Source: Gemmatimonadota bacterium (lineage in GTDB: Bacteria > Gemmatimonadota > Gemmatimonadetes > Longimicrobiales > Gaopeijiaceae). Taken from it: DNA of 42,988 nt. The notes under the pieces were generated by a model that did not search any database, was not told where the DNA came from, and worked only from the letters and a program-made list of their open reading frames with translations. The stretch covers positions 1-42,988 of the forward strand of contig JAPPGM010000075.1 in the NCBI GenBank assembly GCA_028874995.1. The letters run 5' to 3'. How positions within the stretch are numbered: position 1 is the first letter of the stretch; every line of letters begins with the position of its first letter. Below are positions 20,456 to 21,224 of the stretch, piece after piece. Position numbers and translations under genes: made by a program.

Positions 20456-20507
20456 CCTCCCATCCCACATGCTCCCGTCCCTGGATTGCCGTAGCGGCGG
20501 GCGGGCG
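20456..20507 (-). repeat. Dispersed ~59-bp repeat, divergent tandem copy D2
   Basis: This is the outermost and most divergent copy in a tandem array on the minus strand. It keeps the CGCCCGCCCGCCG lead, GGCAATCCAGGGAC, GAGCATGT and ATGGGA. It is offset 58 bp from the next copy, measured at the shared CAT of GCATGT. Confidence 0.7.
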
Positions 20508-20509
20508 CA

Positions 20510-20566
20510 GGCCGTCCCATTTTGACATGCTCCTGTCCCGGGTTTTGCCGCGGCGAGGTGTGGGCG
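20510..20566 (-). repeat. Dispersed ~59-bp repeat, tandem copy D1
   Basis: This is the best-preserved copy in the array: CGCCGCGGCAAAACC, GGGACAGGAGCATGT and CAAAATGGGACGGCC on the minus strand. It closely matches copy A beside recA. Together with the neighbouring copies it fills most of the glmM-HNH gap. Confidence 0.8.
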
Positions 20567-20568
20567 CG

Positions 20569-20588
20569 GGCCGTCCCATTTTGACATG
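20569..20588 (-). repeat. Dispersed ~59-bp repeat, partial tandem copy D3
   Basis: Only the CATGTCAAAATGGGACGGCC end of the unit is present. It is exactly 59 bp from the same word in D1 and stops nine bases short of the HNH fragment's stop codon. The truncation marks an edge between repeat array and endonuclease fragment. Confidence 0.7.
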
Positions 20589-20596
20589 GCGCCTGA

Positions 20597-20989
20597 TCAC
20601 GCCACCGCCTCCAGCGCCGTGAGTTCCAGTTCCAGCGGGACTTGGGAGTCCGTGAACCGGGGAGCACCGTATGACAGCTGACCGCGAGGAGGGGCCGGAG
20701 GCTCCGGCAGTTTCCCCGCCGCCTCGGGCAGCGGCGGCGCGCCCCCGATCACCCGGCCCGCCCGCGTGAAGAACGCGGCCTTGCCGTCACGGTCGAGCGC
20801 CATGCGCGTCCCACCCTCGTGGACGAGGCGATGGTGGCGCCGACAGAGCAGGATGGTGTTGGCCAGACTCGTCTCGCCCCCATCGGCCCAGTGCTTCACA
20901 TGGTGGGCCTCGGTGAAGCGGCTCGCGCATCCGGGGTAGCGACAGCCGCGGTCCCGTTCCTCCAGCGCGCGGCATAGCAGAATCGGCCT
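20597..20989 (-). pseudogene. Remnant of a DUF222/13E12-type HNH endonuclease
   Basis: About 130 C-terminal residues of an HNH nuclease remain: RALEERDRGCRYPGC, then HHVKHWADGG, then NTILLCRRHHRLVHEGG. The Cys pair and the HNH ligands are intact. Full-length relatives have a ~200-300-residue DUF222 region before this. Here the upstream frame, open only to a stop near 21143, gives unrelated sequence dominated by DNA hairpins, and no good start precedes the motif. It is therefore a 5'-truncated copy. A GTG at 20899 would yield a peptide that omits the first Cys pair. It lies between inverted-orientation repeat copies. Confidence 0.75.
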
Positions 20990-21081
20990 GTGATCAGACC
21001 ACTTGGGACGGTGATGCTCGAATCGCCCGATGGATCGGGCACACGGGACTGTGACCTCGGCCGGCGAACCGGCCTGATCAC
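20984..21081. repeat. Hairpin cluster upstream of the HNH remnant
   Basis: Perfect stems occur at 21025-21040 (GCCCGAT-GG-ATCGGGC) and 21059-21074 (GGCCGG-CGAA-CCGGCC). The word TGATCA recurs at 20991-20996 and 21075-21080. The 10-mer GCCTGATCAC at 21072-21081 is repeated exactly at 20591-20600, on the other side of the HNH remnant. This looks like a structured end of a mobile or degraded element rather than coding sequence. Confidence 0.5.
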
Positions 21082-21164
21082 CGGCCGGGCGTTTCCGGCG
21101 ACCGATGAGATGAGGGACAGCTTGGCGGCCGACCCACTACTCCCGGCGGATGTTCAAAACGGAC

Positions 21165-21224
21165 CGCCCGCCCGCCGCCGCGGCAAATCAAGGGACACCG
21201 GCATGCTGGATTGGGACGCCCCCC
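21165..21224 (+). repeat. Dispersed ~59-bp repeat, copy B
   Basis: This is a plus-orientation copy with CGCCCGCCCGCCGCCGCGG, CAAATCAAGGGACACC, GGCATGCTGG and TTGGGACGCC, ending 13 bases from the stop of the propeller lipoprotein gene. It has the same placement and relative orientation as copy A at recA, and opposite orientation to the tandem array at 20456-20588. Confidence 0.75.

Follow-up and report, generated by a model that had tools for sequence, protein, structure and literature searches.

The feature at positions 20456-21224 of the analysed stretch of DNA (the window, 42,988 nucleotides) is a decaying copy, with an internal deletion, of a mobile element that is present in many copies. 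In this element one DUF222-HNH gene lies between terminal inverted repeats (TIRs). The window forms part of contig C171 of a Gemmatimonadota genome of 4.52 Mb in 191 contigs. The close relatives that have names comprise Gemmatimonadota MAGs and one complete Longimicrobiales chromosome, and the counts for the own genome and the relatives were taken from genome searches and retrieved stretches. The feature is located between a phosphomannomutase-type gene on one side and a beta-propeller gene on the other. On the minus strand its parts follow in the order 5' TIR, leader, HNH remnant, 3' TIR and second degenerate 3' TIR. The parts, together with a separate TIR of the same window, are the following:

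21164-21221, minus strand: 5' TIR in gene orientation, core GTCCCAATCCAGCATGCCGGTGTCCCTTGATTTGCCGCGG, with an exact TIR-core match at 21178-21217
20973-21163, minus strand: leader with TGATCAC repeats and hairpins
21072-21081, no strand assigned: 10-mer GCCTGATCAC in the leader, within the TGATCAC repeats, present also in copy C172
20600-20971, minus strand: HNH-domain remnant, one open frame (20971 to 20600), 84.7% identity by tblastn
20591-20600, no strand assigned: 10-mer GCCTGATCAC at the stop codon of the HNH gene, at the same position in other copies
20510-20588, plus strand: 3' TIR, core GTCCCATTTTGACATGCTCCTGTCCCGGGTTTTGCCGCGG, with an exact TIR-core match at 20514-20553, resembling other 3' ends
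20456-20507, plus strand: second 3' TIR, degenerate, which forms a tandem with the first at a period of 59 bp
222-301 (core 236-275), minus strand: solo TIR (L033), exact core match

Within the window the 40-bp TIR core is matched exactly at three places (20514-20553 on the plus strand, 21178-21217 and 236-275 on the minus strand). This is far beyond chance, the corresponding value in dinucleotide shuffles being 0.00. The 5' TIR of the window shares 91-95% identity with the 5' ends of about ten further copies of the same genome, and tandem 3' TIRs were detected also in L014, L138, L140, L188 and L189. No HNH remnant was found beside the solo TIR. The HNH remnant corresponds to residues 291-414 of an intact DUF222-HNH homologue; the whole HNH motif is kept and DUF222 is deleted. 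Its Pfam HNH match, on the portion of the frame starting at its GTG, is weak and below the threshold. In the leader, the sequence adjoining the deletion point, CCGATTCTGCTATG, is related to the conserved leader box.

All the repeats, the HNH fragment, the 10-mers and the hairpins described in the initial annotation are present at the positions given there, and the HNH fragment is flanked by inverted repeat copies as was claimed there, the remnant being placed between a 5' TIR and a 3' TIR, each with an exact core match. The hairpins of 20984-21081 are real in the window copy: this segment folds 2.8 s.d. better than shuffles, only 1 of 200 of which was equally good. The proposal that the nuclease gene and its structured ends form a mobile unit was borne out in respect of a TIR-bounded, dispersed element, and conservation of the hairpins across copies was unsupported; in most other copies the leader sequence differs around a common TGATCACAGGCC. 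The 10-mer, which had been put forward for testing as a possible mark of insertion boundaries, turned out to be internal to the element and marks no boundary, and a single 10-mer repeat within 769 bp is close to chance (about 0.3 pairs expected).

The intact copies are about 1.75-1.95 kb long and consist of a 5' TIR, a leader, a single DUF222+HNH ("13E12") gene and a 3' TIR. This gene is the only conserved gene of the element, and no recognised transposase is encoded. In intact homologues DUF222 was matched with 83 and 85 bits and HNH with 27 and 29 bits, all above the Pfam gathering cut-off. The TIRs are imperfect, about 58 bp long, and have a core of about 40 bp with the structure GTCCCA-N6-CATGC-N4-GTCCC-N4-TTTGCCGCGG. 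The alignment of 33 TIRs resulted in 22 invariant columns, with CCCA, CATG, GTCC, TTT and CCGCGG as conserved blocks. The TIRs of the 5' and the 3' end are related to each other and consistently distinct (..AGCATGC.. vs ..GACATGC..), and outside GTCCCA the conservation declines within about 2-3 bp. No target-site duplication was detected at 21 two-ended copies, at which the longest direct repeat did not exceed that of shuffled pairs (27% of the shuffles were as high). A REP-type hairpin was not found in the five folded TIRs, four of which were no better than shuffles (z from +0.98 to +1.73) and one mildly better (z -1.4). The region had no Rfam match, and the exact TIR core had none in IMG/VR.

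The arrangement of one gene between TIRs and the internal-deletion derivatives with both ends resemble insertion sequences and MITEs. TIRs at both ends, dispersed copies, differing flanks and occupied and empty sites, the latter not base-exact, were found as in insertion sequences. In contrast to these, the element has no DDE, tyrosine, serine or HUH transposase and no detectable target-site duplication. Compared with a MITE, the window copy combines an internal deletion with the presence of both ends, and G018 carries a full-length copy at the same site.

The TIRs were scored by a sequence model in 23 genomes of the genus and in 95 relatives outside the genus, and were detected in 21 and 0 of them, respectively. 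In G008 and G010, the two TIR-negative genomes of the genus, the gene was not found at E <= 1e-10 either. In the closed genome G001, where 31 TIRs were counted by the genome search and 30 were placed, 25 of the 30 adjoin group-1 DUF222-HNH genes or remnants in the inverted 5'/3' arrangement, and the remaining five, at four loci, are solo. No TIRs were found at the three group-2 DUF222 loci of this genome. In the tree of 92 DUF222 sequences one clade with a support of 100/98 has TIRs in 26 of its 27 members. The TIR label changed 6 times on the tree compared with 26.6 times in shuffles, and some of the 6 changes are accounted for by labels outside the main clade (G072, L141, L095, L096), which upon re-examination are weak pattern matches. 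At homologues with less than 50% identity, among them all the proteobacterial ones, and at the distant homologues of Myxococcota and Rhodococcus no flanking inverted repeats were found beyond chance-level matches.

The strong association with DUF222/HNH genes across related genomes agrees with the earlier view that the repeats of about 59 bp belong with this type of HNH gene, and no orthologous loci carrying the HNH fragment without the repeats were found. The interpretation of the repeats as non-autonomous elements was not upheld: they are mainly the TIRs of the HNH element, and the solo and internally deleted copies are by-products. The solo and tandem occurrence of TIRs could also be expected if they were REP-type repeats of the host that serve a cellular role, and if the HNH gene encoded a host nuclease that is incidentally multi-copy. 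An IS110-like element enters the TIR at a fixed point, as insertion sequences do in REPs, for example ISPpu9 (PMC8450116), which fits this explanation as well. It is nevertheless very improbable, as 25 of the 30 TIRs of G001 lie at HNH genes, inverted 5'/3', and as TIR and gene are jointly absent in G008 and G010.

The IS110-like element, with a transposase of 410 aa assigned by eye, was observed at the identical TIR point, between GCCGCGG and AACCTCCATGG, in several copies, namely at L130:4355-5897 and L127:4347-5889 of G001, with fragments also in L128, L129 and L209. This resembles the insertion of IS110 relatives in REP sequences.

A second DUF222-HNH subfamily of about 45% identity is also repeated and has no GTCCCA TIRs (L134 and L136 in G001, with the own-genome relative L042:715-2337). 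The AT-rich ends of two of its copies look inverted (ATACTTAAC..ATGTT / AACATTAATGTTAAGTAT) and possibly represent a different cognate end. The DUF222-HNH gene at L053 (G006:C51:284763) falls in the TIR-carrying clade and is instead surrounded by a 119-bp inverted repeat of unrelated sequence with 82% identity; it was apparently captured by another unit.

The search of the own genome with the 769-bp region resulted in 73 matches at about 30 places. Most of these are contig ends, as expected since repeats break the assembly. The copies are of two kinds: 5' ends with the TIR, the leader and the start of the DUF222 gene (MSDDLFELGERIAQL...), and 3' ends with the HNH part, the stop codon and the TIR. 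In the closed genome G001 about 10 copies, with 90-96% identity, are complete or almost so. The homology between them ends at or near the TIRs, with few short common pieces beyond, and their flanks are mostly unique. Internal-deletion derivatives were detected elsewhere too: L208 of G001, in which both TIRs are kept and most of the gene is lost, and L137. The same dehydrogenase and asparagine-tRNA-ligase-like neighbours surround the deleted group-1 element of L208 and a group-2 DUF222-HNH gene in the own genome (L042, C126); this locus is possibly an insertion hotspot.

HNH nucleases are classical homing enzymes. The HNH protein might cut GTCCCAT-N5-CATG boxes or empty alleles, and the copies would spread and be homogenised by homologous recombination; the TIRs would then be recognition sites or iterons instead of transposon ends. 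The type of the nuclease, the tandem TIR arrays and the lack of a target-site duplication are in accordance with this explanation, and so is the behaviour of the related REP13E12 repeats of M. tuberculosis, which are among the most gene-converted loci of that genome (PMC13061034). However, homing between homologous sites would not place the copies of G001 at unrelated sites, mostly with no common flanks, and the asymmetric yet conserved 5' and 3' ends resemble those of a transposon. We regard homing as improbable. The element has a selfish HNH gene in common with HNH homing elements, and differs from them by its inverted terminal repeats and, as it appears, by its insertion at many unrelated sites.

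The insertion in the window is polymorphic between species. In the sister species G018, where the neighbouring genes are the same, the two halves of a full-length copy were found on two contigs, each at a contig end, whereas in G021 the locus is occupied by about 107 bp of unrelated intergenic DNA without the element, and the element is absent also in G014, G012 and G017. Since the same site is full-length in G018, the insertion in the window is probably an older one and has probably decayed in place, losing about 1.1 kb with all of DUF222. The loci of relatives orthologous to L133 of G001 are likewise without the element. No base-exact empty site was found with the joined flanks of nine insertions; at L133 the intergenic DNA differs between genomes. 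Beside one further gene an element or remnant was observed in three species (L030 in the own genome, C141; L140 in G021; L188 in G018), heavily decayed in L030 and intact in L140 and L188. This site is likely another shared old insertion.

The main alternative is passenger transport, in which the HNH gene and the TIRs are cargo moved by other transposases, above all by an IS630-like unit. This unit has degenerate ends (GTGTCATGTCACAC... / ...GTGTGACATGACAC) and transposase fragments, and encloses many copies in G000, G003 and G018. We take it to be IS630-like on account of the peptide ADWQFTTDDARVKLKRLYP, which is typical of that family, and of partial TA flanks. In the own genome the unit, with the C-terminal peptide ADWQFTTDDARVKLKRLYP, was observed at the contig ends of C129, C107, C121, C96, C20, C40, C2 and C158. 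The same IS630-like flanks occur at about ten of the 5' ends and at several of the 3' ends in the own genome, and at most of the G003 copies examined, and the unit has very probably carried some copies. On the other hand, the copies of G001 are without such flanks and mostly unique beyond the TIRs, and the copies of the window, C172, C42 and C184 lack them as well, so that the G001 copies and the window copy are left unexplained. Moreover, purifying selection or cognate boxes would not be expected in cargo. A single DDE_3 gene of the own genome exceeds the cut-off; considered as the IS630 source of the outer unit, it proved unrelated to the flanks, and no full-length transposase related to the unit was found there. 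As an account of the element as a whole, passenger transport is rather unlikely.

Eight G001 copies were compared in all 28 pairings, and every pair gave a dN/dS value within 0.08-0.32. This indicates purifying selection, and the copies therefore descend through functional proteins. Upstream of the genes with at least 50% identity, a leader box of 21 bp, GTCCCATCCAGCCATGGACGG, forms an isolated conserved island in several genera of two families. It is exact in 16 of 30 upstream regions and in 0 of the in-gene or downstream and shuffled controls; most of the remaining leader is unalignable across these genes. The motif GTCCCAT-N5-CATG is common to the leader box and the TIR, in which it occupies the outer half. 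The sequence of the inner half, TTGCCGCGGAAACG, was found near DUF222 genes of G026 and G072 as well, which are outside the genus. A palindrome of G072 related to it, CGTTTCCGCGGAAACGT, resulted in 43 forward matches compared with 0 in the reversed control, and has sites on all four contigs carrying DUF222 copies. The perfect palindrome noted at L203-L205 and in G072, CGTTTCCGCGGAAACG(T), with its 43 forward matches and 0 in the reversed control, clusters near DUF222 copies and occurs also on other contigs (C7, C16).

The structure of the DUF222-HNH protein was predicted with a mean pLDDT of 76. In this predicted structure residues 15-131 match the DNA-binding domains of Noc/ParB (Z up to 8.8, 2.5 A over 101 residues). 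A further match, to the HNH domains of McrA/IscB, covers residues 284-356. The Noc/ParB-like match concerns a helical domain of the model and is of middling strength.

We consider it slightly better than even (about 0.55) that the DUF222-HNH element is autonomous now or was so recently, its protein binding the boxes and its HNH domain acting at the ends with no target-site duplication. The simplest reading of the data would be a nuclease that binds the boxes, controls its own promoter and works on the ends of its own element. The N-terminal ParB/Noc-like DUF222 domain would bind boxes of the GTCCCAT-N5-CATG type at two kinds of site: the leader of its own gene, where the box would serve as an operator, and the outer half of each TIR. 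The HNH domain would nick or cut at the element ends, and the element would be copied or moved without target-site duplication. Internal-deletion derivatives like the window copy may be moved in trans or may simply be dying remnants. The suggestion of the initial annotation that HNH proteins of this type are the mobilisers gains indirect support, as we infer binding of the boxes and mobilisation from the cognate boxes, the selection and the DNA-binding fold; some copies evidently travel inside the IS630-like unit.

Several observations speak against an autonomous element. Neither a target-site duplication nor a base-exact empty site was found, and we know of no transposase-type chemistry for DUF222-HNH proteins. 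The IS630-like flanks shared by many copies in G000, G003 and G018 point to spreading at least partly inside another unit. Flanking inverted repeats were not detected at homologues below 50% identity, the resemblance to ParB concerns a helical domain and has a middling score, and the purifying selection could also reflect a host function.

Among the closest known systems, REP13E12/13E12 of Mycobacterium shares the DUF222 + HNH family and the multi-copy repeats with the present element and has no defined biological function (PMC13061034; PMC10589994). The present element differs by its conserved TIRs, derivatives and presence/absence polymorphism. Two Rhodococcus homologues, on which the Actinobacterial side of the comparison is based, are without flanking inverted repeats. 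The short cognate repeats around a nuclease-type gene and the solo, tandem and inverted-pair repeats resemble RAYT/REPIN systems (PMC3116915). The enzyme in the present case is an HNH protein, however, and the TIR is without a REP-type hairpin. A search of the own genome for the Y1 (HUH) transposase, PF01797, gave no match at E <= 10. In the open-access papers searched we found no description of TIRs, ends or mobility of DUF222-HNH/13E12 repeats, nor of a TIR-bounded form or cognate boxes.

DUF222-HNH proteins are repeated in many genomes, so far without an assigned function or mobility mechanism. With defined ends, a cognate box, derivatives and occupied and empty loci, it becomes directly testable on known substrates whether an HNH nuclease can act as a transposase. 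Tentatively, and at less than even odds, the element may represent a class of bacterial elements that are autonomous and in which the place of the transposase is taken by an HNH endonuclease whose DUF222 domain is ParB/Noc-like and which acts, without target-site duplication, on TIRs sharing the operator box of the leader. The element would account for many contig breaks in the assemblies of the genus and, if such a class exists, it would give a mechanism for the 13E12 repeats, so far unexplained, in Actinobacteria and other groups.
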